Shown here: piece after piece, positions 7,914 through 23,390 of the stretch
How positions within the stretch are numbered: the first letter of the stretch is position 1
Layout: each line of letters starts with the position of its first letter
Assembly: GCA_016190245.1 (NCBI GenBank)
Contig: JACPQY010000072.1
Location: forward strand, 1-29,838
Source: Nitrospirota bacterium
GTDB taxonomy: Bacteria; JACPQY01
DNA: 29,838 bases
Direction: 5' to 3'
Notes under the pieces: model-generated
Database searches by the model: none
The model's input: the letters and a program-made list of their open reading frames with translations, nothing else
Told to the model about the DNA's origin: nothing
Made by a program: the position numbers and the translations under genes

Positions 7914-8840
7914 CTGGGACTGGTCGTCTTTGCGTTTTGGCTGATCGGAACGGCGGCTTGGTGGGCCTTGGCTCTTGTGCCGCTTCCAGCGGGCGCCCCC
8001 GAGTGGATGGATCGAGTTCGCGAGATCTGTTTCGGATCATCCCCCGGTGGGTTGCCGGACACCTTCGGATGGATCGGCCTGATCCTGGGCCCGGCTTCGA
8101 CGTTGGCCGCGCTCATCGTCATCTGGTCCCCGCAGTTTCGCTTTTCGCTGTCAGGCACGCTTAGGAGACTGGTGGGGGCGGGTCTTGCCGGTGTGATGTT
8201 GGCCGGCATCGCTTGGACGGGCGAGCGTATCCATCGGGCCTGGAAGGTTATGCCTCCGTTGCCCGGTTCGCACGTCTCCGTGGATGGAATGCCGTCTTCC
8301 TATCCGCGGGTGGATCGCCCAGCCCCGGATTTCTCCTTGATCGATGAGGCCGGCCGAACGTGGTCCCTTGCAGATTGCCGAGGTCGGCCCACGCTCCTGA
8401 CCTTCGCCTTCGCTCACTGCGAGACGACCTGTCCCACCATCGTCAAGAATGCGATCGCGGCGGTCGAGTCCGCCCGCCCACTCCGGCCGATCCTTCTGAT
8501 CGTCACGCTGGACCCCTCGCGGGACACGCCGCCATCCCTCCCTTCGATCGCCCGGGAGTGGGGGCTTCGCGAGGATATGCATGTCCTGTCGGGAACCCCC
8601 GCCGAGGTCGAAAGCGTTCTGGACACATTCAACGTGAGACGCCGGCGGGACAATTCAACGGGAGAAGTTGAGCACCCTTCGCTCGCGTACGTGCTGGGAC
8701 CGGACGGAAGGCTGGTGTACGAACTGAGGGTACTTTCGAGGTCCTGGTTCGAGCAGGCGATTGAGCGCGTGGGTGGGGGGGGCAAGTCGGCAAGGTCCCG
8801 GGACCGCGAGTCGGCCCGCAAAGCCCAGCGGCCGGGCTGA
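7914..8840 (+). CDS. SCO1/SenC-type copper-binding thioredoxin-fold protein with N-terminal membrane helices
   Basis: SCO proteins deliver copper to cytochrome oxidase CuA or act as periplasmic thiol-disulfide proteins. The copper site is complete: CETTC (C169, C173) and H254 in VEHPSLAY, within a thioredoxin fold starting at APDFSLID. The upstream part contains hydrophobic segments for three membrane helices. I place the start at CTG 7914 because AGGAGG (7903-7908) lies five bases upstream. The frame from there gives a clean first helix (LVVFAFWLIGTAAWWALAL). TTG 7968 has no good ribosome-binding site and would cut off that helix. An in-frame stop at 7899 excludes anything longer. No oxidase genes are adjacent. 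The C-terminal 25 residues are basic and low-complexity. Confidence 0.82.
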   Translation: MGLVVFAFWLIGTAAWWALALVPLPAGAPEWMDRVREICFGSSPGGLPDTFGWIGLILGPASTLAALIVIWSPQFRFSLSGTLRRLVGAGLAGVMLAGIAWTGERIHRAWKVMPPLPGSHVSVDGMPSSYPRVDRPAPDFSLIDEAGRTWSLADCRGRPTLLTFAFAHCETTCPTIVKNAIAAVESARPLRPILLIVTLDPSRDTPPSLPSIAREWGLREDMHVLSGTPAEVESVLDTFNVRRRRDNSTGEVEHPSLAYVLGPDGRLVYELRVLSRSWFEQAIERVGGGGKSARSRDRESARKAQRPG

Positions 8841-8856
8841 CACTGCCGCCCGCAGC

Positions 8857-10641
8857 CTACGGGCGATACAGCACGTACACCTCGCCGGCACGAGCGCGGC
8901 CGACGGAGACCGTGATGAGCCAGCGGCGTCCCTCGCGGTCCATCGCGTGCTCGGCGAGAAGATCCTCCGCCCGAATCGGGATGCCGCGGTCGTCCCGACC
9001 GCTGGCGTTGGCGTAGCCCTTGAAGTTGATGCGCACGTCCCCGGCAGGTGGCGTCGTCTCGGCAGCCACGATTTCGAGGGTCTGGGAGCGCTCCACTTCA
9101 AGGGTCTCGCCCGGTTCGAGCCAAGTTCGCTGACCGTCCGCAAGGACGAGCAGCCGCTCCAGCCGCGGCCGCGTGAGATGGAGGAACCACGCGGCGGCCT
9201 CCCGCCCGGCCTGCGTGGCCGAAATCTTGTACGTCTCACCACGGCGGTCCACCGACCACCGCGGCAGGAGATCCGTGGCGGTGTTCACGGCATAGGCGAG
9301 GTCGTGGCCCAGGTTCTCCCTCCGCTGGTCCGGCGGGACGAAACCCAGGAGGTTCACCTTGAACGGGCCTTCTTTGCCGGAGGCGAGCTCCAGCAGGGTG
9401 AGGGTCTCCCCCAACGGGACATCGAGGACGGCATTGGGCCGCAGCCACTGGTCCCTCTCGCCGTGACGGACGCGCAGGGAAATCCCCTCCGTGGGCTCGG
9501 ATCGCTCGGCCGCCACCTCGATGCGCACCTCGCCGCAGGGGAGGCTGTCTTTGCGGGCGACGACCGACGTGGCGTGGTCAATCACGATCGGCCGGTGCAT
9601 GTCGTTGTCGCCCCCGAGCCCCACCACGTCCGCAGAGAGCCCGCGTTCATAGTTCGACTGGACGTGCTCGACCTCGATCTCGGACCCCGGCGGCACGGCG
9701 ATGGTCTCGCGGTCCCGCGCCACGACAGGTCGGCCCTGTCCCACGCGGATCACCATGAACTCCAGGCGCGGGGGATCGAAGCGCACGGGGGGCAGATCCG
9801 GCACCACGTCGAACAGCTTGAAGAACTCATTGATCACCGTGGACTGGTAGCGCAGCCGGGCCGAGTGAGGCTGGATGCTCTTGCTGGTCTCCACGCCGAA
9901 GGCAGGGATCCCGACCTTCGTCACCGCAAAGAACGTGGCCGAGAGGCGCTGTTCGGGGTGGGGCGAGTCCGGGTCTCCCGTGCGGGTGTTCTTCACGTGG
10001 AAATGATGCCGCGCCTCCGTGATCTCCGCGTTGGCCCCCGCCGCCGCCTGCTCCGCGATGTCGCGCAGCGGGATGATCTTCTTCTCCTCGGTTTCGTGGG
10101 TCTCGGCATCGATGATGATGCTTTGACCCCACCGCTTCGGGCTGACCTCGTCGTTCATCGCCTCGGGCGAGTAGAAGCCGGATCCGTCGTGAAGATTGAG
10201 CAGGAGCTGACTTTCGCGCATGAGGGACTGGAGGACCTGGACCACTCTCTCCTCGTAGATGTTGTCCCTTGCGGCTTTGTTGAACTGCCGATTCATGTCC
10301 GCGTTGATGGCCCGGGTGTTCTGCATGATCGTCTTGAAGTTGGCGCGAGGGATGACGATGAGGTTCCCCCGCTTGAGCGTGAGGTCCACATAGAGGTCGG
10401 CGGTGAGATAGCCGCCCGGCTCGTCGCCCTGGATTCCACCGATCATCATGATCGTGTGGCCGGGCTCACGGCCGAAGATCTTGTAGACGTCGAGCTGGTA
10501 GTCCGTGTTCTCGAAGTAGGTGAGGCGCTGCGTGTCCGCGCGAGAGGGAAAGGGATGGGCAAGAGCCAGGAGGAGAACCGAGAGGAGCAGGGGTGCGAGG
10601 CGCGGCCGGTCGGGCGGGCGCGGCCGCGTTGCGGGGGTCAT
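8857..10641 (-). CDS. M99-family zinc carboxypeptidase, Csd4/Pgp1-like peptidoglycan hydrolase
   Basis: A 594-aa exported protein. The signal peptide (about residues 14-35, ending PSRADT) is followed by a carboxypeptidase domain with GGIQGDEPGGY (Q71, E74) and LNLHDGSGFY (H151). This matches the unusual Gln-Glu-His zinc site described for Helicobacter pylori Csd4, including the roughly 80-residue spacing to the His. Csd4/Pgp1 trims tripeptide to dipeptide stems and gives cells their helical shape. The C-terminal half (about 300-594) contains several beta-rich repeats with Arg/Glu-rich strands, probably accessory domains. ATG 10641 fits the signal peptide. ATG 10707 would add residues coded by a heptamer repeat and is less likely. 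The gene follows the Csd6-like gene on the same strand, and the pairing supports the role. It converges on the SCO gene with a 16-bp gap. Confidence 0.85.
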   Translation of the reverse strand: MTPATRPRPPDRPRLAPLLLSVLLLALAHPFPSRADTQRLTYFENTDYQLDVYKIFGREPGHTIMMIGGIQGDEPGGYLTADLYVDLTLKRGNLIVIPRANFKTIMQNTRAINADMNRQFNKAARDNIYEERVVQVLQSLMRESQLLLNLHDGSGFYSPEAMNDEVSPKRWGQSIIIDAETHETEEKKIIPLRDIAEQAAAGANAEITEARHHFHVKNTRTGDPDSPHPEQRLSATFFAVTKVGIPAFGVETSKSIQPHSARLRYQSTVINEFFKLFDVVPDLPPVRFDPPRLEFMVIRVGQGRPVVARDRETIAVPPGSEIEVEHVQSNYERGLSADVVGLGGDNDMHRPIVIDHATSVVARKDSLPCGEVRIEVAAERSEPTEGISLRVRHGERDQWLRPNAVLDVPLGETLTLLELASGKEGPFKVNLLGFVPPDQRRENLGHDLAYAVNTATDLLPRWSVDRRGETYKISATQAGREAAAWFLHLTRPRLERLLVLADGQRTWLEPGETLEVERSQTLEIVAAETTPPAGDVRINFKGYANASGRDDRGIPIRAEDLLAEHAMDREGRRWLITVSVGRARAGEVYVLYRP

Positions 10642-10662
10642 CCCCCCGGCTGGCGGAGACTT

Positions 10663-10704
10663 GAGATCTGAGATCTGAGATTGGAAATCTGAGATTTGAG
10701 ATTC
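10663..10704. repeat. Tandem heptamer repeat (six GAGATCT-like units)
   Basis: Six consecutive 7-bp units: GAGATCT, GAGATCT, GAGATTG, GAAATCT, GAGATTT, GAGATTC. They sit in the 80-base gap between the Csd6-like and Csd4-like genes. The AT-rich composition stands out from the surroundings. Heptamer tandem repeats of this sort are known as non-coding elements in some bacterial lineages. It could also affect the start or coupling of the downstream gene. Confidence 0.75.
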
Positions 10705-10721
10705 CATATGAGGTGGGGGGG

Positions 10722-12446
10722 TCATTCCGGCTCCAGCAACCCGGCCCCCACGAGCGGGAACGGCTCGACCGGCCGGTAGGGCATCCACGATTCGGTCAGG
10801 ATCCGGTACTCCGCCCCTTCCTTCGTCAAGTAGATCCGTTTCACGCCCACGTCCCTCAGATCGTCCGACTGGTAGTTCTGCACGTATTGTGCCACGACGA
10901 TCTCCTGTGCGCCTAGGGGGGGAGGTTCCGCGTACCGCAGGAGTTTGAGTTCCTCCATGCCGATGCGCACATCGGACTTGGCTTCGAAGATGCGGGACTT
11001 GTACGCGCGCCACTGCGCCTTGTTGCGCCCGAGGGCTTGGAACCGATCGGAGTAAAACGCCATGTAGGCATTGAGATCTCCCTTCTCCCAGGCCTTTGCC
11101 CAGCCCTCGACCGTGCGGCGCAGTTGGGCGCGGTCGCGCAGGCTTTTCTCTCGTCCCGCGAAGGTGAGGCGGTCAGTCACGGCGATGGGTGTCATGTGGA
11201 TGCTCAGGAACTGGGCGAGGGCGGAAAGTGTGCTGTTGCGCACCACCACACAGCCTCGCGAATTGAAGGGCGGCCGCTCTTCCTCCTTCCGGTCCACCCC
11301 GTGCAGCCAGATCCCGCCGCCGGACTTGCCCAGCCAGGTATCGATCTCGTTGGGGTAGTTCATCGGGAAGGCCATGGCTCCGAAGCGAGGCTCGAGCCGC
11401 TCGCCCGGGATGCGGGTGGTGAAGAAGTAAATGCCCTCGGGCGTTCGCTCGTCGCCCCGCGTCCGTTTGTCCCCGCTCATCCGGCCGGTGGTGGTTGGGT
11501 ATTCGGCGACGCGTTCGATCTCGCCGGAGAGGTGTTGTTTGTAAAGGAAGAGCCGCTGGGTGGATTTCTCCACGACCAGCGCGTAGGGCTGGCTCCCGCC
11601 GATGTCCACCAGGACGTTGGGGTAGTTGATCTTCTCACGCTCCTCGCGGAGGCGGGCGACGGCCCCGCGGATCTCATCGGCCTCGGTCTGGAGGGTGCGG
11701 TCGGAGGGGAAGGCGGGGAGGGCCCGTTCGTAGGCATCCAGGGCCTGCTCCAGCCGGCCGGCGGTTTTATAGGCGCGCGCGAGAAGGACGAGAGCCGGCG
11801 ACAGTCGGGGGTCCTTCGCAAGAGCGACCTCGAGGTGACCGATCGCCCGCTCGGTCTGGCCTCGCTCCAGGCTGATCTGGCCGAGGAGCGTGTAGACCTG
11901 GGGTTCGAGCGAGCGGCGGCTTCGCAGGATGCCGAGGTGCCGTTCGGCCGAGTCGTGGTCGTGGCGCTGGATGAGGAGTTGGGCAAGCCGCAGGCGGAGC
12001 GTATCGATCGATTCGTCGAGCTGAAGGGCGGTGGTGTATTCGACGATGGCCTGGCCTTCCCGCCCCGCGCTCTCAAGTCGGGTCCCGCGCTCGATGAAGC
12101 GGTCAGCCCCGAGATCGGGCCGGCCGCGCGCGGCGGCCTTGAACTGGGCGACGGCGTCGTTCCAGCGTCCCTCGGCCCTGAGGAGGAGGCCGGAGTAGTA
12201 TTGGAAGAGCGGCTGGGCGGGCTGGGATTCGATGAGGGCCTTGAGGAGGGCGTGTTTCTCCTGCGGGAGGGTGCCCGCCTCGAGGAGTTCGCCCAGAAGA
12301 TGCACGGCTTGGCGCAGGTGCTCATCCGCCTGCTCGATTTCGGCGGAGGGTGCGGCCGCGGGCGCGGCGAGTGCCGCGTGAGGGGAGGCAAGGAATGGCA
12401 CGAGCAGCCATCCCCAAGTCCAGCGGAAGTTCAGTCCCTTGAACAT
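10722..12446 (-). CDS. TPR-containing L,D-transpeptidase-fold enzyme, Csd6/Pgp2-like L,D-carboxypeptidase
   Basis: A 574-aa exported protein. It has a signal peptide (residues 1-28, ending HAALA), TPR-like helical repeats (about 80-250), a YkuD catalytic domain (about 275-430) with H382 in IWLHGVDR and nucleophile C399 in NSRGCVVV, and a C-terminal NTF2-like domain (about 440-560, WAKAWEKGDLNAYMAFYS). YkuD plus NTF2 is the architecture of Csd6 (Helicobacter), Pgp2 (Campylobacter) and Bd1075 (Bdellovibrio), L,D-carboxypeptidases that cut tetrapeptide to tripeptide stems and set cell curvature. The product is the substrate of the adjacent Csd4-like enzyme. The N-terminal TPR domain is an addition and may recruit partners. 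ATG 12446 was chosen for the signal peptide. An exchange activity (true L,D-transpeptidase) cannot be excluded. Confidence 0.87.
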   Translation of the reverse strand: MFKGLNFRWTWGWLLVPFLASPHAALAAPAAAPSAEIEQADEHLRQAVHLLGELLEAGTLPQEKHALLKALIESQPAQPLFQYYSGLLLRAEGRWNDAVAQFKAAARGRPDLGADRFIERGTRLESAGREGQAIVEYTTALQLDESIDTLRLRLAQLLIQRHDHDSAERHLGILRSRRSLEPQVYTLLGQISLERGQTERAIGHLEVALAKDPRLSPALVLLARAYKTAGRLEQALDAYERALPAFPSDRTLQTEADEIRGAVARLREEREKINYPNVLVDIGGSQPYALVVEKSTQRLFLYKQHLSGEIERVAEYPTTTGRMSGDKRTRGDERTPEGIYFFTTRIPGERLEPRFGAMAFPMNYPNEIDTWLGKSGGGIWLHGVDRKEEERPPFNSRGCVVVRNSTLSALAQFLSIHMTPIAVTDRLTFAGREKSLRDRAQLRRTVEGWAKAWEKGDLNAYMAFYSDRFQALGRNKAQWRAYKSRIFEAKSDVRIGMEELKLLRYAEPPPLGAQEIVVAQYVQNYQSDDLRDVGVKRIYLTKEGAEYRILTESWMPYRPVEPFPLVGAGLLEPE

Positions 12447-12475
12447 CGGCAGGCGTCCTGTTGCAAGGCGGCGGT

Positions 12476-12505
12476 ATTTTCCTCGGATTGCCCCCCGGTT
12501 GTCAA
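12476..12505 (-). promoter_or_regulatory. Promoter for the csd6/csd4-like genes
   Basis: On the minus strand TTGACA (12505-12500) is followed by an 18-bp spacer and GAAAAT (12481-12476), predicting a start near 12469, about 23 bases before the ATG. It lies back to back with the FTR1 promoter in a 177-bp divergent region. Confidence 0.5.
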
Positions 12506-12541
12506 CCCGCGCGAGTTCTTGCCGTGGAGGAGGCGCGCCAC

Positions 12542-12569
12542 TTGACACTTTGCGGAACTCCTGTATCCT
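12542..12569 (+). promoter_or_regulatory. Sigma70-type promoter of the FTR1 permease gene
   Basis: TTGACA (12542-12547), 16 bp, TATCCT (12564-12569), with a predicted start near 12576. The Fur-box-like sequence at 12582-12600 lies immediately downstream, where a bound repressor would block initiation or escape. Confidence 0.55.
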
Positions 12570-12581
12570 GACCGCGTAAAT

Positions 12582-12600
12582 GATAATGAAAGTCAATATC
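12582..12600. promoter_or_regulatory. Fur-box-like operator upstream of FTR1
   Basis: The 19 bases from 12582 match GATAATGATAATCATTATC at 16 positions, with TGATA and TATCA outer arms (12581-12601). It lies between the predicted transcription start and the AAGGGGG ribosome-binding site (12611-12617). Iron repression by Fur is the expected mode. Confidence 0.7.
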
Positions 12601-12623
12601 ATCTAGGACCAAGGGGGTCCACA

Positions 12624-13442
12624 ATGTTCGAGTCCTTCGTGATCACGCTTCGGGAAGGTATGGAGGCATTTCTGATCGTCGCCATCAGCGTCGGCTACCT
12701 GCGCAAGACGGGCCGCGGGTCGCTCGTCCGGGCCGTCGGCTGGGGTGCGGTCGCCTCCGTTCTGGCGAGCGTCGGGGCGGGGGTTCTCCTCGAACGGGCC
12801 TTGAATCAGCCGCTGTGGGAGGGTGTTCTCGCCGTGGCGGCCGCGCTGCTGGTGGGCACCATGACCGTCCACCTGGCTGTGGCCGCGCGGACGCTCAAGA
12901 AGCGAGTGGAGAGCCGATTGGAGGCGGCCACGCGCAAGCCCGGCCCTGCCGCCTACGCGGGCCTTTTCCTCTTCACCGTGCTGATGGTCACGCGCGAGGG
13001 CATGGAGACGGCGCTCCTGCTCGGCAGTTTGCTGGTTCAGGAAGGCTCCACTTCGGTGCTGGCGGGCGCTCTTCTCGGTCTCTTCGCGGCGGCGGGGCTC
13101 GCGTGGCTCTGGAGTCGATATGGTCATCGCGTGAACCTGGCGCACTTCTTCCAGGTCACCGCGGTCTTCTTGTTCGTTTTTCTCGTCCAGCTTCTGATCT
13201 ACGGCTTCCACGAGATCACGGAGGCGGGCGTCCTTCCGATCGAAAGGACGCTGAACGATCGGCTCCATTGGGCCACCGAGCCGTTCGGCCCCGAGGGGCT
13301 CTACGGGCAGTGGCTGACCTACGCGATGGTGATGCTTCCGCTGGCTTGGCTGGCGTGGGCGTCGCTGCGCGACCGGATGCTGCCCAAGGCGATCGCCGCG
13401 TCGGGGGGACACAGGCCGGGGTTCTCCGACCGAAAAGGTTGA
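12624..13442 (+). CDS. FTR1-family iron permease
   Basis: A 272-aa polytopic inner-membrane protein with two REGME motifs, R10-E14 in TM1 and R124-E128 in TM4, the REXXE iron-transport signatures of the FTR1/EfeU family. About seven hydrophobic segments fit the family. FTR1 permeases import iron, in several systems as Fe(III) formed by an oxidase or delivered by periplasmic partners. ATG 12624 is preceded by AAGGGGG six bases upstream. The Fur-box-like site before the gene agrees with iron import. No EfeO, EfeB, multicopper oxidase or P19 partner gene is adjacent. The next genes are instead a porin, a cytochrome-porin and a flavin protein, an unusual setting. Confidence 0.9.
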   Translation: MFESFVITLREGMEAFLIVAISVGYLRKTGRGSLVRAVGWGAVASVLASVGAGVLLERALNQPLWEGVLAVAAALLVGTMTVHLAVAARTLKKRVESRLEAATRKPGPAAYAGLFLFTVLMVTREGMETALLLGSLLVQEGSTSVLAGALLGLFAAAGLAWLWSRYGHRVNLAHFFQVTAVFLFVFLVQLLIYGFHEITEAGVLPIERTLNDRLHWATEPFGPEGLYGQWLTYAMVMLPLAWLAWASLRDRMLPKAIAASGGHRPGFSDRKG

Positions 13443-13498: not shown

Positions 13499-13517
13499 GA
13501 TATTGAGAATCATTAGC
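13499..13517. promoter_or_regulatory. Fur-box-like operator upstream of the acidic porin
   Basis: The 19 bases from 13499 match the Fur consensus at 16 positions, including the central AATCATTA block. It lies in the 135-bp gap between FTR1 and the porin, downstream of TATCAT (13474-13479), a possible -10 without a clear -35. The porin and later genes may thus have a second iron-controlled promoter. Confidence 0.65.
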
Positions 13518-13577: not shown

Positions 13578-14981
13578 ATGAAGACACGGTTGGCAAAGAC
13601 TTGGTGGGCGCTCGGCGCTGCGGCGGGCGCGCTTTTGGCCGCGGACGTCTCGCGGGCTTCCGATGTGAAAATCGGCGGCTACGGCTCGTTCCGGTGGAAT
13701 ACCACTGCGGGGAGCGAAGACGTCAAGGGCGTCCCGGAAGAACTCAACACGTTCACGCTCCGGCGGTTCGTTCTCACAACGGACGCGCAGCCGGTGCCCC
13801 GATTCCGGTCGTACCTCGAATTCGAACTGGAGCGGTTCCGGCTCATCGAGCTCAAGAAGAAGCTCGAGGTGGGGAGCGCCGATGAGCTCGAGGCGGAACT
13901 GGAGATCGAGAACACCTCCGGCTCCGAGATCAGCCTGGAACAGGTGTGGGGACAGGTGGATCTAGTGGAGCAGGAACTGGGCTTGCGCTTCGGCGGCATT
14001 CTCGTGCCGCTGGGCCGGTACAACATCCGGCACGACGACAACCAGTGGGACATTCCCAAGAGGCCGCTCGTGGATCGCGGCGACGGCGAGCTCGGGATCC
14101 GGTCCGTTCTCCCCTCCAAGGCGGCGTGGGACGAACTGGGCGTGGGTCTCGTGGGGACCTACGACACGTTCGGCTTCGAGGCCTACTACATGAACGGGCC
14201 GACGCTCGATTTCGAGTACGAGTCGGAGTTCGAGAAGGAGTTCACCGCGGACCACAAGGCAGTGGACGTGGAGACGAAGATCGCCACCCGGCTCATGACG
14301 GGGACGTTCGATGTGGACCCGAAGGGGGCGCTCAAGTTCGGGGGCGCGCGCGGGTACGTGTGGCCCGGAGTCGGATCCGAACTGGCTCTCTCGGCCTTCG
14401 GCGGCCGATACACGCCGGAGGAGTTCCCGACTCAGCAGTCGCTCTATTCAGTCGCCGCGGACGGCCTGGGGACGCTCGGCATCCTCGAGGTGGAGGGCGA
14501 AGTGGCCTATTCATCGTTCGGGGACGTCGGGAAGGTCAAGAATGCCGTCGGCATGGAGGCGGAGGCCATGGCGATGCAGACGGTGGACGCCCAGGGGAAT
14601 ATCACCAACATCGACCCCAAGGTGGACGCTCATCCCGACTTGGTGCTCGTGGTCGAGGGCCCGAACCTCCCGGAGAAGTCCTACGGGGGCTGGGTCGAGT
14701 TCCGGTGGCCGATCCCCGTCAACGTATGGGGCGACTCCACCAAGCTCATCCCGCTCGCACGGGTGGAACAAGTCGCCTACCAGAACTGGGACGGCAACGA
14801 CAAGGATGATCGCTCGGCCTTCCGGCTCACTCCGGGGATCGCGCTCCGGCCTTCGCCGCTGGTGACCTTCTCGGCGGTCTACCAACTCACCCAGATGAAC
14901 GATTTCCCCGGAGCGGCGAAAGGGACGACCGAGGACGCCGCGGTGCACTCCGTCCTCGTGGGCGGGGCGTGGGGGTTCTAG
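13578..14981 (+). CDS. Outer-membrane beta-barrel porin with acidic segments
   Basis: A 467-aa protein with a signal peptide (MKTRLAKTWW..., cleavage near residue 27, SRA-SD) followed by alternating beta strands and a C-terminal ...VLVGGAWGF ending in Phe, the outer-membrane insertion signature. GGILVPLGRYNIRHDD and the overall layout resemble phosphate-selective-porin/OprP-like barrels. Two Glu-rich segments (about residues 82-112 and 213-235) are unusual and could bind cations such as Fe2+/Fe3+; that is inference. The start has AAGGAAGGGAGAG just upstream. The 81 bases of in-frame sequence before it include the Fur-box-like site, so the longer frame is rejected. It is probably the outer-membrane entry point of the iron system. 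Confidence 0.8.
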   Translation: MKTRLAKTWWALGAAAGALLAADVSRASDVKIGGYGSFRWNTTAGSEDVKGVPEELNTFTLRRFVLTTDAQPVPRFRSYLEFELERFRLIELKKKLEVGSADELEAELEIENTSGSEISLEQVWGQVDLVEQELGLRFGGILVPLGRYNIRHDDNQWDIPKRPLVDRGDGELGIRSVLPSKAAWDELGVGLVGTYDTFGFEAYYMNGPTLDFEYESEFEKEFTADHKAVDVETKIATRLMTGTFDVDPKGALKFGGARGYVWPGVGSELALSAFGGRYTPEEFPTQQSLYSVAADGLGTLGILEVEGEVAYSSFGDVGKVKNAVGMEAEAMAMQTVDAQGNITNIDPKVDAHPDLVLVVEGPNLPEKSYGGWVEFRWPIPVNVWGDSTKLIPLARVEQVAYQNWDGNDKDDRSAFRLTPGIALRPSPLVTFSAVYQLTQMNDFPGAAKGTTEDAAVHSVLVGGAWGF

Positions 14982-15104: not shown

Positions 15105-15142
15105 GCTACTGTACAGTGGCCGGCCGTCCAATGTACAGTAGC
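15105..15142. promoter_or_regulatory. 11-bp perfect inverted repeat across the start codon of the cytochrome-porin gene
   Basis: GCTACTGTACA (15105-15115) and TGTACAGTAGC (15132-15142) are exact reverse complements separated by 16 bases that contain GGCCGGCC. The ATG at 15131 lies next to the right arm. It can be read as an operator for a dimeric repressor or as an mRNA hairpin that hides the start. Because TGTACA is itself palindromic, it is also a direct repeat of TGTACAGT at a 22-bp period. Confidence 0.55.
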
Positions 15143-16459
15143 CGGGTCGCGGGCCTGCTGCTCGTCGCCTTGTTCATCGGTCTGCGGCCCGGCCTCGCCT
15201 CGGCCGTGCCCAGCTTCTCGCGGCAGACGGATCGCTCATGCAGCTCCTGTCATGTCATCTGGCCGGGGCAACTGCGGAAGGCGGGACGGGTCTTCAAGTT
15301 CGCCCAGTACGGGGATGCGGCGCCCGAATACCCTGGCGGGGAGGTGAAGGGGGACCGGCTGAGTCTTCTCCGGGTCTTCCCCCTTTCCGCGCGCTTTGCG
15401 GCCGCGCCCTACGCGAGCGGGCCGGGCGAACCGGCGGGGTCGAACTCGCAGATCGATCGTCTGTCAGTCTTTCTTTCCGGGAGAGTGGCCGACGGCGTCG
15501 GCGCGCACTCGGAGCTTTCGTATGAGGGGCAGTTGGTGGTCCCTGCCGCGCGGCTCGCCCTCAGGGGGCCTTCCTCGGCCAACTACGCGAGTGGTCTGGT
15601 TGTGGGTCGGATGGAGCCCGGCGGCGCGGATCCGTTCAATACCATCCGCCACAATGCGCTGTTGATGCGGTGGATCACTCCGGCGCTGAGCGAGGGGGAG
15701 CTCCCGCTGGTGTCAACCCGGAACTTCGGCGCGGTGGCCCAGGTGTACCTTTTCGACGAGATCTACCTTGCTGCCGGTCCCTTCCGCGGCAGTTCCGCCT
15801 GGGCGACGGCCGACCAGGGATTGGATCTCTTCGCTCGGGGTGCCGTGGACCACCTATTGGACTGGGGGGACGACGCGAGTGTGATGCTCGGGACCTTCGT
15901 CTACACCGGGAAGGAACGCGATCGCACCATGCCTGGAGCGTCGGACGCCGGCGCGGAAATCCCGTTGACGTACGACACCTCGGTTCGACGCTGGGGACTG
16001 GATGCTCAATTCCAGTATTTTTCGGGAAAGCATGGGGCCCAGTTGACGGCCGTGATGGTGCAGGGGCGCGATGGAAAGGCCGGGGGTGCGGCGCCTGCGG
16101 CCTACACGGGTTTCGTTCTGGACGCGCTCTATGTTTCGGGCTGGGAGCATGGGATTCTGCTGCGGTGGGATTCCATCTACACACGGCCGGACATCGCGAG
16201 GGGGAGAAAGACTCTGGGTTTCGGCCCGGTGTTCTTCCTCTCAGAGAATGTCCGGCTGGGCGTGGAATGGCGGCAGCAGATTCGCACTGGCCGCGCGGGC
16301 GGCGAGCCGATCCCCGAAGTCCCGCATCAGCATGCTCCTGTTCGACGTGTTTCCCAGGCCGCGAAGGCCCCAACGGGGGACGTGAGCTTGGCGCCGGAGA
16401 GTGCGGGCGGGAGCCGCGGGAAGACCGGTCTTTCCTTCGTCATTGATGTGGCGTTTTGA
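15131..16459 (+). CDS. Monoheme cytochrome c-porin fusion, Cyc2-like
   Basis: A 442-aa protein. The signal peptide (residues 1-25, ASA cleavage) is followed at once by a single heme-binding site CSSCH (37-41) in the setting VPSFSRQTDRSCSSCH, then RKAGRVFKFAQYGD, and about 380 residues of beta-barrel sequence ending GLSFVIDVAF. A short N-terminal heme segment with a (S/A)xFxRQT-CxxCH-GRxFK pattern ahead of a barrel is the layout of Cyc2, the outer-membrane Fe(II) oxidase of iron oxidisers. Many proteins of this wider class have unknown roles. ATG 15131 suits the signal peptide but has no clear ribosome-binding site. ATG 15038, with GAGGG upstream, would add 31 residues before it. No ccm genes are in the window. 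Fur-linked context favours iron metabolism, as assimilation or as respiration. Confidence 0.72.
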   Translation: MYSSRVAGLLLVALFIGLRPGLASAVPSFSRQTDRSCSSCHVIWPGQLRKAGRVFKFAQYGDAAPEYPGGEVKGDRLSLLRVFPLSARFAAAPYASGPGEPAGSNSQIDRLSVFLSGRVADGVGAHSELSYEGQLVVPAARLALRGPSSANYASGLVVGRMEPGGADPFNTIRHNALLMRWITPALSEGELPLVSTRNFGAVAQVYLFDEIYLAAGPFRGSSAWATADQGLDLFARGAVDHLLDWGDDASVMLGTFVYTGKERDRTMPGASDAGAEIPLTYDTSVRRWGLDAQFQYFSGKHGAQLTAVMVQGRDGKAGGAAPAAYTGFVLDALYVSGWEHGILLRWDSIYTRPDIARGRKTLGFGPVFFLSENVRLGVEWRQQIRTGRAGGEPIPEVPHQHAPVRRVSQAAKAPTGDVSLAPESAGGSRGKTGLSFVIDVAF

Positions 16460-17750
16460 CGTGGGCGTGCGGACGCTGACGCCTTTTCGTATACTGGAAG
16501 GCACGCCACCGGTGCTCTGCATCTCGCTCTGTTGCCTCGTCCTGTTCGGGCAGGTTTGGACTGCCCGGGGCTATGAGGTCCCTTCCGGGTCGCTGGCGCC
16601 GGTCTTTCCTGAGGCGAAAACGATTTCGAAGATCGAGGTCCGGTTCTCCGATGAGAGCTACGAGGCATGGCTCAGAGCGCTGCCCAAGAAGCCTTCGATC
16701 GAGGAGCGTGTGTTCGAGGGCTACGAGTTTCGGAAGGCCGCCGAGTCGGGGGACGGCTCCACGGTGGGCTATGCCTTTTTTGTGGACGAGATCGGGAAGG
16801 ATCGGCCGATCACATTCCTCGTCTCCGTTGCGCTGCCCGGCGAGGTGAGGGCCCTGGAGGTGGTGCACTACCGGGAGACGCGCGGCGGCGAGATCCGCGC
16901 GAAGTCGTTTCTCAAGCAGTACCGTGGCCGAACGCTGGCGGATTCGTTCGGAGATGTGAAGGTCGTCCGCGGGGCGACGCTCTCGGCGTACTCAGCCACG
17001 CGGGCGGTGGTGAAGGCGCTGGCCGTGGTGCGATCGCTCGGGAGTCCGGGCGTCGAGGTGAAGCGGGGGGAGGCGACCAAGTTGGCGTCGAGCCGGTTCC
17101 TTCGCAGGTCGTTCTTTGTGGGAGATGCCGTGCTCACGATGCACGTGGAGTGCGGGGGCCGGGACGCGGCGGCCTGCGCGGTGGTTCTGGATGAGGTGGC
17201 AGGGGAGGCGCGGCGCTGGTTTCGTCGGTTCGAGGAGTGGAGGGAGGGTTGTTTTCACCCGGCCCTGGTGGACTTGGAGCGTCGTGCGCGGTCCTACCGG
17301 GATGCCTCGGGCGGGGCGTTCGACCTCAGGTGGGCCAAGCCGGCCGCCCGGCAGGGCATCGACTTCGGCAGCGTGTACAAGGGTTTCATCCTCGACCGCG
17401 TGGCGGAATTGATGCAAGATGAAGGGATGGGCCGCTTCGAATTGGCCTACGGCGATTCGAGTTTCCTCGTTCGGGGGGGGGGTAGCCGGTTTCTTGCCTG
17501 GGGGCGGGAACTGGAGGTACGGGACGGTAGCCTCTCGGTTTCGGCCGCTTCGGGGGAGTACAGCCGAATCGTGGACGCGCGGGACGGCCGGCCCCTCACC
17601 GGGCGGCGTGTGGCCTATGCCATGCATCCGAGCGCGGAGGTGAGCGATGCGCTCTCGACCGCGTGCCTGTTGACGGGATCGCGGTGTCCCACGGTGGCGG
17701 AGCGCCTGCGCGGCGTGGCGCTGGCCTTCGCCGCGCCCGAGGACTTCTGA
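16446..17750 (+). CDS. FMN-binding domain fused to ApbE-like FMN transferase
   Basis: A 434-aa exported protein (hydrophobic signal or anchor, residues 21-38). Residues about 80-195 resemble an FMN_bind domain: VGYAFFVDEIGKDRPITFLVSVAL and a GATLS motif at 176-180 whose Thr is the expected covalent-FMN acceptor. The residue before GAT is Arg rather than Ser/Thr. Residues about 220-434 match ApbE flavin transferases: SGGAFDLRW, DFGSVYKGFILDRVAELM, RIVDARDGRPL and SDALSTACLLTG. The usual His of the HxxDPxTG segment is Arg. Thus the flavin carrier and the enzyme that attaches FMN appear to be in one chain. Such flavinylated proteins carry electrons in the periplasm. It overlaps the preceding cytochrome gene by 14 bases (translational coupling). 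A G10 run at 17473-17482 lies in the ApbE part. Confidence 0.78.
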   Translation: MWRFDVGVRTLTPFRILEGTPPVLCISLCCLVLFGQVWTARGYEVPSGSLAPVFPEAKTISKIEVRFSDESYEAWLRALPKKPSIEERVFEGYEFRKAAESGDGSTVGYAFFVDEIGKDRPITFLVSVALPGEVRALEVVHYRETRGGEIRAKSFLKQYRGRTLADSFGDVKVVRGATLSAYSATRAVVKALAVVRSLGSPGVEVKRGEATKLASSRFLRRSFFVGDAVLTMHVECGGRDAAACAVVLDEVAGEARRWFRRFEEWREGCFHPALVDLERRARSYRDASGGAFDLRWAKPAARQGIDFGSVYKGFILDRVAELMQDEGMGRFELAYGDSSFLVRGGGSRFLAWGRELEVRDGSLSVSAASGEYSRIVDARDGRPLTGRRVAYAMHPSAEVSDALSTACLLTGSRCPTVAERLRGVALAFAAPEDF

Positions 17751-17751
17751 C

Positions 17752-18219
17752 ATGCTACGGAAGCTCCCCGTTGAGACCAGACTCACCATCAGCCTCTTTC
17801 TTGCGTTCTGCCTCGCAGGCCCGTTCGTGAACGCTCTGTACCACATCCTCAAAGTGGGGGTGGGGCTGGACAGCGGGACGGTTCACTACCAGGGAAACGG
17901 CGACCTTCCGCCCAAGAGTTTTCTCGAAATGGTGGAGACCACCCACTTTCATACGTGGATCCAAGCGGTGGTGATGTTCCTGGCGTCGCTCCTGTTCAGC
18001 CTCACCGGGCAGCTCGGTCCGCGCCGGCGTGGGGGCCTGGTTGTGGCCGGCTACGGTTTCGTCCTCCTCCATCTCATCTCGCCGTTTCTCGCGCGCCTGG
18101 CCGTGCCGGGAGGCACGCTGTTGGTACTGGCCTCGGCTGTGGGCATTACGTTCTGCCTGTGGTTGTACGCCGGCTTCGTATTGAGAGAGATCTGGTCCGC
18201 GCCAGGCCGGTACAACTGA
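17752..18219 (+). CDS. Small four-helix membrane protein of unknown function in the iron/flavin cluster
   Basis: A 155-aa protein with four hydrophobic helices (about 12-31, 64-85, 95-117 and 121-145). Histidines lie within or at the ends of helices (H31, H65, H67, H107), in the segment ETTHFHTWIQAVVM. That could fit heme or quinone binding, but I do not recognise the family and no function is proved. It starts one base after the stop of the FMN/ApbE gene, so it is almost certainly co-translated. The position suggests a membrane partner that passes electrons to or from the flavin protein. The start ATG 17752 is the only reasonable one. Confidence 0.75.
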   Translation: MLRKLPVETRLTISLFLAFCLAGPFVNALYHILKVGVGLDSGTVHYQGNGDLPPKSFLEMVETTHFHTWIQAVVMFLASLLFSLTGQLGPRRRGGLVVAGYGFVLLHLISPFLARLAVPGGTLLVLASAVGITFCLWLYAGFVLREIWSAPGRYN

Positions 18220-20030: not shown

Positions 20031-23000
20031 GTGAGCGGTTCCACTCCGAGCGGTCGAACGGCTGAGCAGACGGCGGGCCTGCGCCACCGGGGTATGGGGC
20101 GGGCGTGGGCTTGGCTGCTCGTCCTGGGCGGCATCGCCGGGCTGATCGTCGGTGTCGTGCTCTTCGACCGATCGAGTCCGAGCGCAGCGATTCGCCTGGA
20201 CCTCGACCGGGGCGAAGTCCTGAGCCGCGCCGCTGCATTTCTGGCGGCCATTGGCGAGGAGACCGACGACTACCGGACGGCCATCCGATTCGTCGAGCCT
20301 TCGGAAACGCTCCGCTACGTCGAGAAGACGCTGGGGATTGAAGAAACCAACCGGCTCCTCCGGGGGGGGGTGCGTCTCCACCGCTGGGAAGTACGGTTTT
20401 TCAGGCCCGGCGAGAAGACGGAGTTCACAGTGGGTTTGACGCCGGGAGGGATGCTCGTTCTCTACGAGAAGATCGTTCCGGAGGACGAACCCGGCGGGGC
20501 GTTGGGGGAGCTGGAGGCCGAGGGCCGGGCGCGGGAGTTCCTGCGCTCTTTCGCTCCGGTGGACGCGGGGGCTCTCGAACGGATCGAGTCCGGCTCCACG
20601 GCACGCCCCAGCCGGGCTGATGTGACGATCACATTCCGGGATGGGGGCAGCGCGATCGCGGAGGCCGAGCATCGGTTCGACGTGTGGTTCCTGGGCGACC
20701 GACTCGGGGGATTCAACGAGTACTACCAGGTGCCGGAGGCGTTCACCCGCGATGGGGCGGCGCTCGATGCGCTGCGCTCGGCCGTGCAGACGGTGGCCGA
20801 CTACGCGCACACAGCGCTCGAGATCGCCATGCTGATTGTGTTTCTCGTCGCGGTGCGGCGCGGGTGCGTGCCGTGGGAGATGTCGCTGGCGGCCGGCGCT
20901 GCGCTCGCGGGGGTCGAAATCCTTTCCCACGCCAACTCGCTGGGCCTCTGGCTGCACAGCTACGATCCCGTGCAGTCCTACGGCAGTTTCCTGACCGGCT
21001 TCGCGACGCAGGGCGTGACGTCGGCCGCGTACGAGGGGTTGGGCGGCCTCGTGCTGGCCGGTGCGGCCCTCGGGTTGGCACGCATGACCGGCGACGGACG
21101 GGGGCTGGGTGAGGTTCTTCTGGGGCCGGGATCGCCTCCGTCCGTCGGACGAGGGGTCGCGACCGGCTACGGCTTGGCCGGCGTGATGTTCGGCTACGTC
21201 ACGCTCTTCTATCTCGCGGGGCAGGAGTGGCTTGGCTTCTTCGTCCCGCTCACGGTCAACTACGACGATACGCTTTCGACGCGCTTGCCGTGGGCATATC
21301 CGCTCGGGGTCGGGGTCTCCGCCTCACTCACGGAGGAGCTGATGTACCGCTTGTTTGCGATCGAGGCCGTAAGGCGTCTCACGCGGAGTTCGGTCCTCGC
21401 GGTGCTCCTCCCAGCCGCGGCTTGGGGGTTCGGCCACACGTTCTATGACGTCGAGCCTGTCTATGCCCGGGGGATCGAGGTCGGAGGGATGGGATTGGTC
21501 CTGGGCTGGGCCTACCTGCGCTTTGGCCTGCTGCCCTGTCTCGTGTGGCACTACGCCTACGACGCAGGCCTTGTGGGTCAACTTCTGCTCCGGAGCGGCA
21601 ACCCGACCTTCTTGGCCTCCGGGGTGGCCGTGGTGGGACTGGCGATCGCCCCGGTCTTTCTCGCTTGGCCGGGAGTGCGGCGATGGATCGGTCGTCGGCT
21701 CGAAGCCGGCCATCCGGAAGGTGGTCCGCTCGCTGCGTCTGAGACGGGGTGGTCTCCCCCGCCGGCGCAGCGCCCACCCGCTCCCCTCGCCTGGTTCGGG
21801 TACGCACTCGGCCTCGCGTCGCTGGCCCTACCCTTCGTCTGGACTCGATTCGAGAACCCCGGCGCCACTGTGGGCGAAGTGCGGCTCACGCGCGCGCAAG
21901 CCCTGCAACGGGCGGAGGAGTGGCTCGCGACCGAAGGATTCGACACTGCGGATTACCGGCGTGTGGACGAGCTCGAAATCGCGGACGACGGATGGGACGC
22001 CGTCTACCTGTCGAGAATGAACGGCGCGAGGACAGCCCGGGGGATACTCGACGACGCGGGAGCGGGTCGGCCTGTCTGGCTCTTTCGCTGGTTCCGTCCC
22101 CAGGACGAGCACGCGCTTGCGGTCGCCGTGGATCAGGAAGGGCGGATTACAAGATTCGAGATGGGCCTGCCAGAAAATGAGCAGGGCGCATCGCTGAGCC
22201 TCACCGAGGCGCGCGCCCTGGCCAGGGCGGCGGCGGAGCGCTGGCGGCCGGACCTGCGGCCGGACGAGTGGGAGGAGAGCCACACGTCCTACGTGCGTCC
22301 CGCGCGCACCGACTACGACATCTGGTGGACGCGGAGGGGGGGGGAATTGGCGGAGGCCGAGGCCCATCTCCATGTGGGGTTGGCGGGCGACCGTATCGCC
22401 CGCCTCGACTCGCACGTGGAGGCGCCGGAAAGGTTCATCGATGACGCGTCGCGCGTCGGACCTATCGATCACGTGGTGGGTCTGACGGGCGATCTGGGCG
22501 GAATGATCAAGAGCGGAGCGGCCATGCTAGCCGCGGTGATCCAGCTCCGCGCGGGGCGATTTGACTTGCGAATGGGGCTTCTTCTCGGGGGCGCGGTGCT
22601 CGTCCTCCGACTGCTGGGTCTGGCCAATGCGTGGCCCGTGTTCTGGGCGGGCTACGCGGACGACACGGCCGCCTCGCCATTCCTCTATCTCTACCAGTCG
22701 CTAGCGGACGACCTGATGGCCGGCGGATGGTCGGCGTTCGTCACGTTCCTTCTGATCGGAGCGGGCTGGCGTGCACGACCGTGGAGTCGGAGGGGCGCGG
22801 GGGGTGCCCCGCTTGCCCTCGCGCTACGCATCGCCATCTCGATCGGGCTCACCTTTACCGCCGCATATCTTTTCGGCGAGCGATGGCCCGGCCACTACCT
22901 CCAACTCTTCGCCTACTCGCAGGAATACAACACGTACTCGCCGCTCGGGTCGGCCGCTCTCGATGCCGTCTCGCGGGGGATCGGTCTCATCGGTGTCGTG

Positions 23001-23390
23001 GGCGTGTTCGCCACCCTCGCGGAATGGCGTCCGCGTGGGCGCTCACTCTGGGTGGCGCTCTATTTCCTCGTCGCGGCCTGCGACGCCTGGCGCGCGGGCG
23101 CCTCGGCAGGCCTTCATGTTGCGGACACCGCGACCGCGGTCCTGCCGGACGTCCTGGCTCTGGCCTGCCTCCTGCGCTTCGGCGGCTTCGATCGCCGAGC
23201 GATCTTTCTCCTGGGCGCGGCGCCCGCGTGGCTGTCGGGGCTGAGCGTGCTCGAAGGGCCGGGCCTGTGGTGGCGTGCCAACGGGGCAGCTTGCGTGATC
23301 GCGCTGGCCCTGATGGCGTGGCGGATGACCTGGCCTGGAAACCCATCTCGGGCGCGTGCGCAGCTTGACAGCCCCGGGGCGATTTGCTAA
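20031..23390 (+). CDS. Giant CPBP-family (CAAX-like) membrane protease with duplicated extracytoplasmic domain
   Basis: A 1119-aa protein, much longer than usual CPBP proteases (about 200-300 aa). Order: TM (about 24-45); extracytoplasmic domain A (about 59-260); membrane block with the three CPBP motifs EELMYR (435-440), FGHTF (H469) and HYAYD (H507, D511); extracytoplasmic domain B (about 620-804); second membrane block (about 815-1105). Domains A and B are clearly related: both begin with an Ala-rich helix and a G(x)-DxxDYR turn and end with GDR(L/I)...-PE-(A/R)F-x-(R/D)D. The second membrane block lacks the protease motifs. The motifs imply an intramembrane metalloprotease, substrate unknown. 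GTG 20031 is the longest start; ATG 20094 is an alternative. G9 runs at 20362 and 22336 sit in both duplicated domains. No operon partner is evident. Confidence 0.78.
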   Translation: MSGSTPSGRTAEQTAGLRHRGMGRAWAWLLVLGGIAGLIVGVVLFDRSSPSAAIRLDLDRGEVLSRAAAFLAAIGEETDDYRTAIRFVEPSETLRYVEKTLGIEETNRLLRGGVRLHRWEVRFFRPGEKTEFTVGLTPGGMLVLYEKIVPEDEPGGALGELEAEGRAREFLRSFAPVDAGALERIESGSTARPSRADVTITFRDGGSAIAEAEHRFDVWFLGDRLGGFNEYYQVPEAFTRDGAALDALRSAVQTVADYAHTALEIAMLIVFLVAVRRGCVPWEMSLAAGAALAGVEILSHANSLGLWLHSYDPVQSYGSFLTGFATQGVTSAAYEGLGGLVLAGAALGLARMTGDGRGLGEVLLGPGSPPSVGRGVATGYGLAGVMFGYVTLFYLAGQEWLGFFVPLTVNYDDTLSTRLPWAYPLGVGVSASLTEELMYRLFAIEAVRRLTRSSVLAVLLPAAAWGFGHTFYDVEPVYARGIEVGGMGLVLGWAYLRFGLLPCLVWHYAYDAGLVGQLLLRSGNPTFLASGVAVVGLAIAPVFLAWPGVRRWIGRRLEAGHPEGGPLAASETGWSPPPAQRPPAPLAWFGYALGLASLALPFVWTRFENPGATVGEVRLTRAQALQRAEEWLATEGFDTADYRRVDELEIADDGWDAVYLSRMNGARTARGILDDAGAGRPVWLFRWFRPQDEHALAVAVDQEGRITRFEMGLPENEQGASLSLTEARALARAAAERWRPDLRPDEWEESHTSYVRPARTDYDIWWTRRGGELAEAEAHLHVGLAGDRIARLDSHVEAPERFIDDASRVGPIDHVVGLTGDLGGMIKSGAAMLAAVIQLRAGRFDLRMGLLLGGAVLVLRLLGLANAWPVFWAGYADDTAASPFLYLYQSLADDLMAGGWSAFVTFLLIGAGWRARPWSRRGAGGAPLALALRIAISIGLTFTAAYLFGERWPGHYLQLFAYSQEYNTYSPLGSAALDAVSRGIGLIGVVGVFATLAEWRPRGRSLWVALYFLVAACDAWRAGASAGLHVADTATAVLPDVLALACLLRFGGFDRRAIFLLGAAPAWLSGLSVLEGPGLWWRANGAACVIALALMAWRMTWPGNPSRARAQLDSPGAIC

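Follow-up and report, generated by a model that had tools for sequence, protein, structure and literature searches.

A divergent Cyc2-like cytochrome-porin in a Fur-boxed iron-uptake cluster with flavin genes

Cyc2, an outer-membrane iron oxidase, is normally known from bacteria living on iron, and the presence of its genes is taken to indicate microbial iron oxidation. What, then, is the role of a Cyc2-like gene found behind an iron permease gene and Fur-box-like sites? The question is raised by the open reading frame at 15131..16459 of the window, the whole stretch of 29,838 nucleotides analysed here, for which an earlier note made from the sequence alone had proposed a product of the Cyc2 plan and a part in iron uptake or iron sensing. 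The features that bear on the answer are the following.

12542..12569, plus strand: sigma-70-like promoter TTGACA-16-TATCCT, upstream of FTR1 (10/12 matches; 3 in the region against 0.5 expected)
12582..12600, no strand assigned: Fur box 1, GATAATGAAAGTCAATATC, just downstream of the FTR1 promoter (16/19 matches, 3 mismatches; 0 expected in shuffles)
12624..13442, plus strand: FTR1/EfeU-like iron permease, 272 aa (NF041756 E 8.9e-38, TIGR00145 E 2.2e-34)
13499..13517, no strand assigned: Fur box 2, GATATTGAGAATCATTAGC, upstream of the porin (16/19 matches, 3 mismatches; 0 expected in shuffles)
13578..14981, plus strand: outer-membrane module porin (frame open from 13497; 33-40% identity to module porins elsewhere, E down to 4.5e-64)
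15106..15141, no strand assigned: palindrome CTACTGTACA-N16-TGTACAGTAG, overlapping the ATG of the cytochrome-porin
15131..16459, plus strand: Cyc2-like monoheme cytochrome-porin, 442 aa, ATG 15131 to TGA 16459
15239..15253, plus strand: codons of the heme c site CSSCH (residues 37-41), from the sequence
16446..17750, plus strand: FMN_bind-ApbE fusion with leader peptide (PF02424 E 3.9e-9, PF04205 E 1e-4, both over cut-off)
17752..18219, plus strand: 155-aa membrane protein with HxH (His65, His67); four helices in a low-confidence single-sequence model, pLDDT 64

The frame of the cytochrome-porin is open at these coordinates (positional GC 0.67/0.54/0.76), and its translation begins with a hydrophobic leader peptide, judged by eye, that runs to ...ASA and is followed by VPSFSRQTDRSCSSCHVIWPGQLRKAGRVFK. 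The single CXXCH is succeeded by PGQLRKAGRVFK, and the C terminus reads ...FVIDVAF, with Phe last. As in Cyc2, the product is secreted and at least 365 aa long, with one CXXCH near the N terminus, and its motifs come in the order AVPSFSRQT...CSSCH...GRVFK. In Cyc2 the CXXCH is preceded by AXPXFAR[Q/K][T/Y] (Keffer 2021, PMC8406198), from which AVPSFSRQT departs by one substitution, A to S within FAR. FSRQT also occurs in other cytochrome-porins, e.g. L071, and SRQT in L094 and L113; the pattern used to find our 80 cytochrome-porin loci fixed AxPSF[A/S]RQT, so that the invariance of those residues is by construction. At the Cyc2 PXL position (+4 after CXXCH) the P is present in the target, which reads PGQL and then continues to GRVFK; GPQL variants are found in other Cyc2-type rows, e.g. 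L074 and L085. Pfam and NCBIfam scans of the protein matched no family, and a PDB sequence search returned chance matches only. Maturation of c-type heme is possible in the source genome, since CcmF, CcmC and CcsA-like genes are present (names inferred from length and family).

Where translation starts is uncertain: ATG 15131 falls within the palindrome and lacks an evident ribosome site, and ATG 15038 offers another start in the same frame. As RNA, the palindrome reaches -27 kcal/mol over a 66-nt stretch (z -2.2) and would mask the start codon. We considered whether it could be the operator of a regulator and rejected this as the likely reading: the one other genomic copy, with exact arms (G000:C27:38117-38152, which is L228 8118-8153), sits between convergent genes. 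The palindrome looks like a dispersed palindromic repeat or a terminator.

Does the remainder of the protein form a porin? An AlphaFold model based on 40 aligned sequences (mean pLDDT 73.8, pTM 0.75) gave a complete 16-strand barrel, with a helix at 172-182 between strands 5 and 6. The earlier note had taken an incomplete barrel as evidence against Cyc2, and the arrangement it had described, CSSCH after a signal peptide with FSRQT, GRVFK and a Phe-ended barrel, is borne out by the sequence together with this model. The top Foldseek match of the barrel model was OprP (2o4v, E 4.7e-10), and the top PDB matches in VIA-align were OprO (4rjw, Z 22.7 over 300 residues at 3.3 A) and OprP (2o4v, Z 22.6). 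Cyc2 of Mariprofundus has been modelled on OprO/OprP (PMC8406198). Because other porins of 16 strands come within about 2 Z units of these two, what the model shows is a predicted porin fold rather than OprO/OprP specifically, in agreement with the published model of Cyc2 without singling it out.

The second issue is whether the protein is related to Cyc2 over its length. The whole-length relatives are the Aquificota proteins L054-L056, which are 27-30% identical to the target over residues 18-392 (E 1e-24 to 2e-22); Gallionella, Pseudomonas fluorescens FW300-N2E3, Robiginitomaculum and others gave weaker matches. In a profile comparison quoted in bits, its E-values referring to a four-sequence set, the large Cyc2-type clade scored 86 against the target, 43 with the barrel shuffled and 31 with the barrel alone; the Aquificota profile scored 75 (barrel alone 41) and that of the Gallionellaceae group 52 (barrel alone 15), with at most 42 for the barrel alone in any comparison. 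The neighbouring porin obtained no score with the same Cyc2-type clade profiles. At the sequence level, the whole-length homology of the target to Cyc2-type proteins exceeds chance, and the Cyc2 plan proposed earlier is supported by fold, homology and motif together.

The place of the target within the family is another matter. A 67-row tree, built without Acidithiobacillus or Leptospirillum references and with long branches involved, grouped it with the Aquificota rows (support 86/86); its branch is long and falls outside both the large Cyc2-type clade and the Gallionellaceae group, whose rows we took as Cluster 1 because Keffer and McAllister put the family there. AU tests rejected neither a placement with the Gallionellaceae group or the large clade (p 0.145 and 0.173) nor one with the outgroup set (p 0.407). 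Of the two findings that the earlier note had named as refuting, neither was obtained outright: the barrel is complete, the heme motif resembles that of Cyc2, and the tree puts the protein outside the sampled Cyc2 clades in a position to which the tests prefer no other significantly and reject none. Judged by its fold and its homology, the target is a divergent Cyc2-like protein that may or may not belong to Clusters 1-3. With Cyc2 Clusters 1-3 (McAllister 2020, Keffer 2021) it shares a leader, one CXXCH after AxPxF[A/S]RQT, GRxFK, a length of more than 365 aa and a 16-strand barrel nearest OprO/OprP. Unlike them, it has a long branch of its own beyond the clades sampled, reads PGQL for PXL and FSR for FAR, and sits in a Fur-boxed FTR1/flavin cluster, not in a respiratory one.

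Nor is it the ordinary cytochrome-porin of its lineage, since both the source genome and G001, the sole other genome of the phylum compared, carry a second, different one (L008 343-1782 and L007 340-1779). G001 has neither the target gene nor the FMN_bind-ApbE gene. The L008/L007 protein is conserved in this small phylum, with AIPAFARRE[QK]MPCHRCHDSWPRLNKFG and a large insert after the heme domain.

What is the cluster in which the target is found? The putative permease at 12624..13442 is FTR1-like, in line with the iron permease named in the earlier note; both family matches are below the curated cut-offs, and EfeU is unproven. The two Fur-box-like sites seen earlier hold up as well, each with the match quality listed above, and the source genome contains two Fur-family genes. 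The module porin has no Pfam match, and a 149-nt gap with the palindrome separates it from the cytochrome-porin, so that Fur control of the cytochrome-porin itself is only putative. Downstream, the ATG of the FMN_bind-ApbE gene at 16446 overlaps the end of the cytochrome-porin gene by 14 nt, and ATG 17752 of the HxH protein comes one base past the FMN_bind-ApbE stop at 17750. As in ApbE flavinylation systems, a secreted FMN_bind domain is accompanied by ApbE; here both are in one protein, with a flavinylation-type motif, RGATLSAYSAT, and its gene is the sole FMN_bind match found in the source genome. The HxH protein has no Pfam match, DUF4405 included. His65 and His67 are each conserved in 16/17 aligned sequences, from which heme binding by this predicted 4-helix protein may be inferred; a link to those 4-helix proteins that frequently carry the annotation 'elongation factor-1 alpha' may be conceivable. 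These flavin genes, absent from the earlier note, are the main clue to function. P19, EfeO and EfeB were not found among the window neighbours scanned with Pfam and NCBIfam. MotA/MotB lie beside the cluster and also, in a different order, beside L038; we took this as chance.

It could be argued that the protein is an ordinary respiratory Cyc2 that carries out dissimilatory Fe(II) oxidation and has iron-uptake genes as neighbours through a chance of gene order. Its fold and motif and the capacity of the genome to mature c-type hemes would fit this, and its closest relatives in the tree, e.g. L055, stand beside apparent oxidase subunits (read by eye). However, the gene overlaps that of FMN_bind-ApbE within a Fur-boxed module, and the Pfam-scanned part of the window contains no cyc1-like or oxidase gene. 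We hold this explanation to be highly improbable.

To what extent is the neighbourhood found elsewhere? We searched 386 genomes with the FMN_bind-ApbE and 155-aa proteins, whose matches lay close together on one contig in many of them. Among 20 stretches compared, three gene families recur side by side, encoding a porin, an FMN_bind protein that may or may not include ApbE, and the HxH membrane protein. The same gene order is seen in two further genomes, whose family also accounts for three of these stretches. About 19 genomes have two or three of the module genes together, and many families are represented; five of these genomes come from one family, so that not all are independent. Iron genes (FTR1, FeoB, FbpAB, Fur or multicopper oxidase) are near the module in 8 of the about 19 genomes and a Fur box stands just before the module porin in 6, with one or the other in 13 in all. 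FbpAB flank the module in L169, L171 and L174, FTR1 is near it in L175 and L182, FeoB in L173 and L177, and the Fur family in L171, L173, L174, L177 and L179. Fur boxes with at least 15/19 matches come just before the module porin in L164, L165, L167, L173, L224, L225 and the window, and before FbpA in L169, the expectation in part of the stretches examined being 0 to 0.2 by rough single-base shuffles. The control consisted of 100 loci (1.5 Mb) that surround other cytochrome-porins, rather than of stretches drawn at random from genomes; it contained 5 Fur-box-like sites and no match to FTR1, FbpAB, Fur, FeoB or multicopper oxidase. In the open-licence literature we found no description of the porin/FMN_bind/HxH module, or of FTR1 with FMN_bind and a porin.

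Individual loci illustrate the variation. L173 is a tidy version of the module without the cytochrome-porin: at 7952-13126, Fur, a Fur box, FeoB, a second Fur box, porin, FMN_bind and the HxH protein are colinear, with boxes of 17/19. In L171 (7432-16525), ferric ABC transporter genes, porin, multicopper oxidase, FMN_bind, an ApbE-like frame and the HxH protein follow in a row. L182 has at 10742-12715 an FTR1 permease fused to a cytochrome c domain, adjoining the porin/FMN_bind/HxH module.

The porin usually adjoins FMN_bind in the other module loci, where no cytochrome-porin was found. Only in the window is the gap between them filled by a cytochrome-porin, and the link of this protein to the module rests on one locus because it was found there in one genome only. 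No conserved cytochrome-porin/FTR1 neighbourhood was found in about 20 nearest whole-genome loci or in 80 named loci, and no description of a cytochrome-porin in an iron-uptake cluster, or of Cyc2 with iron uptake or Fur, was found in the open-licence literature. An uncultured proteobacterium has a Fur-box-like site (15/19; L089 9857-9875) about 90 bp before a Cyc2-type gene, which may be chance.

An assimilatory role of the cytochrome-porin is probable in our judgement. It is supported by the overlap with the FMN_bind-ApbE gene and the Fur boxes before FTR1 and the porin, and by the recurrence of the module with Fur boxes or iron genes, the latter absent at the 100 other cytochrome-porin loci. 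The same recurrence favours uptake, one half of the role proposed in the earlier note; the other half, iron sensing, found no support. A cytochrome-porin unconnected with iron, which might deliver electrons to copper, to an organic acceptor or, for some other purpose, to the FMN protein, would suit the Aquificota relatives L054-L056, which stand beside apparent copper-efflux and oxidase genes (by eye), and organisms with no known iron oxidation harbour many cytochrome-porins (PMC8406198). The presence of Fur boxes and FTR1, together with the links of the module to iron, argues against such a protein here, and we find it improbable.

In which direction would electrons flow? FTR1 and FbpABC are ferric-type transporters, FeoB is a ferrous one, and covalent FMN has a low potential. 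Under iron starvation, Fur would release the genes; the 4-helix HxH protein would pass quinol electrons to the periplasmic FMN, which would reduce a heme placed where the 16-strand barrel opens to the periplasm. This heme could then reduce ferric iron outside or inside the barrel, and the freed Fe(II) would enter via the neighbouring porin and be taken in by FTR1. Outward flow is favoured because FeoB accompanies the module elsewhere, and because flavinylation genes occur with iron transporters and the flavinylated proteins there are generally read as reductases (PMC8238504).

The same module could work in the opposite direction, with the heme oxidising Fe(II) and supplying FTR1 with ferric iron. 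Electrons would then pass from Fe(II) in the barrel to the heme, and from there either to FMN and the 4-helix protein or to some other acceptor; the cytochrome-porin would replace the multicopper ferroxidase of yeast Fet3-Ftr1. Tested Cyc2 proteins do oxidise Fe(II), and the potential of the sole one tested near neutral pH, +208 mV (PMC8406198), is high for a ferric reductase, which weakens the reductive reading. It is also weakened by the ferric-type FTR1 and FbpABC, with FbpAB beside the module in three loci, and by L171, where a multicopper oxidase between porin and FMN_bind occupies the slot of the cytochrome-porin and could mean an oxidising step. However, transfer from a heme near +200 mV to a low-potential covalent FMN would be uphill, and both the FeoB genes flanking the module and the reductase reading of flavinylated proteins beside iron transporters speak against inward flow. 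We regard the oxidase as unlikely. If the role is assimilatory, we lean towards outward flow, the reductase being the more likely candidate direction.

The reading we prefer, direction included, is that an outer-membrane monoheme cytochrome-porin of Cyc2-like build has been drawn into a Fur-controlled module for flavin-based iron acquisition, with electrons moving outward; in our estimate it has close to an even chance. More tentatively, at less than even chances, the Cyc2-family protein could be the heme end of an undescribed Fur-controlled module in which FTR1, FeoB or FbpABC serve as interchangeable permeases and electrons go outward to solubilise ferric iron. Keffer and colleagues have noted that Cyc2 may have additional functions (PMC8406198).

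The cluster resembles several known systems. With the ApbE/FMN_bind flavinylation systems of the P19-FTR1 and VIT1 types (Meheust 2021) it shares secreted FMN_bind, ApbE and an adjacent FTR1; it differs in having no P19 among the neighbours scanned, and an outer-membrane porin, a cytochrome-porin and a Pfam-less 4-helix HxH protein in addition. Small membrane cytochromes, DUF4405/FezC, pair with flavinylation and iron genes (2024, PMC11334425); these heme b proteins of flavinylation systems and ferrosomes are, like the HxH protein, small, with conserved histidines, beside flavinylation and iron genes, whereas the HxH protein is unmatched by DUF4405 and has its two conserved histidines in HxH. 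The passages of Rodionov 2004 (PMC545781) on Geobacter and Desulfuromonas describe predicted Fur-boxed porins, psp and an OprB-like one, preceded by a Fur box as in the window, one of them followed by feoAB, and a Fur-boxed cytochrome c gene. Likened to the window by description, psp is weakly like phosphate porins and the OprB-like porin is followed by an iron permease; those passages name no FMN_bind, ApbE or cytochrome-porin partner (PMC545781). The analogy with yeast Fre-Fet3-Ftr1 reductive uptake (Fre reductase and Ftr1) is functional, a flavin-linked redox step beside an FTR1 permease, and the counterpart of Fet3 is the multicopper oxidase of one related bacterial locus, L171. The window differs in its Gram-negative envelope, covalent FMN and outer-membrane heme barrel, and we claim homology for FTR1 and the multicopper oxidase only.

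Our results suggest that proteins of the Cyc2 type have a part in iron nutrition as well, and that their presence alone does not mark iron respiration. If the Cyc2 fold is also assimilatory, divergent Cyc2 matches could not be counted as iron respiration without their context. The porin/FMN_bind/HxH module would be an apparently undescribed possible route coupling membrane electrons to iron uptake in Gram-negative bacteria.

Two minor observations were made along the way. A 1119-aa membrane protein with an Rce1-like protease domain and a weak YcdB-like match is encoded at 20031-23390 of the window. Two further cytochrome-porins, with a DPYN motif, are found at L043 2316-3548, by a multiheme cytochrome gene, and at L048 7106-8311, with a NapA-like oxidoreductase and another porin nearby.
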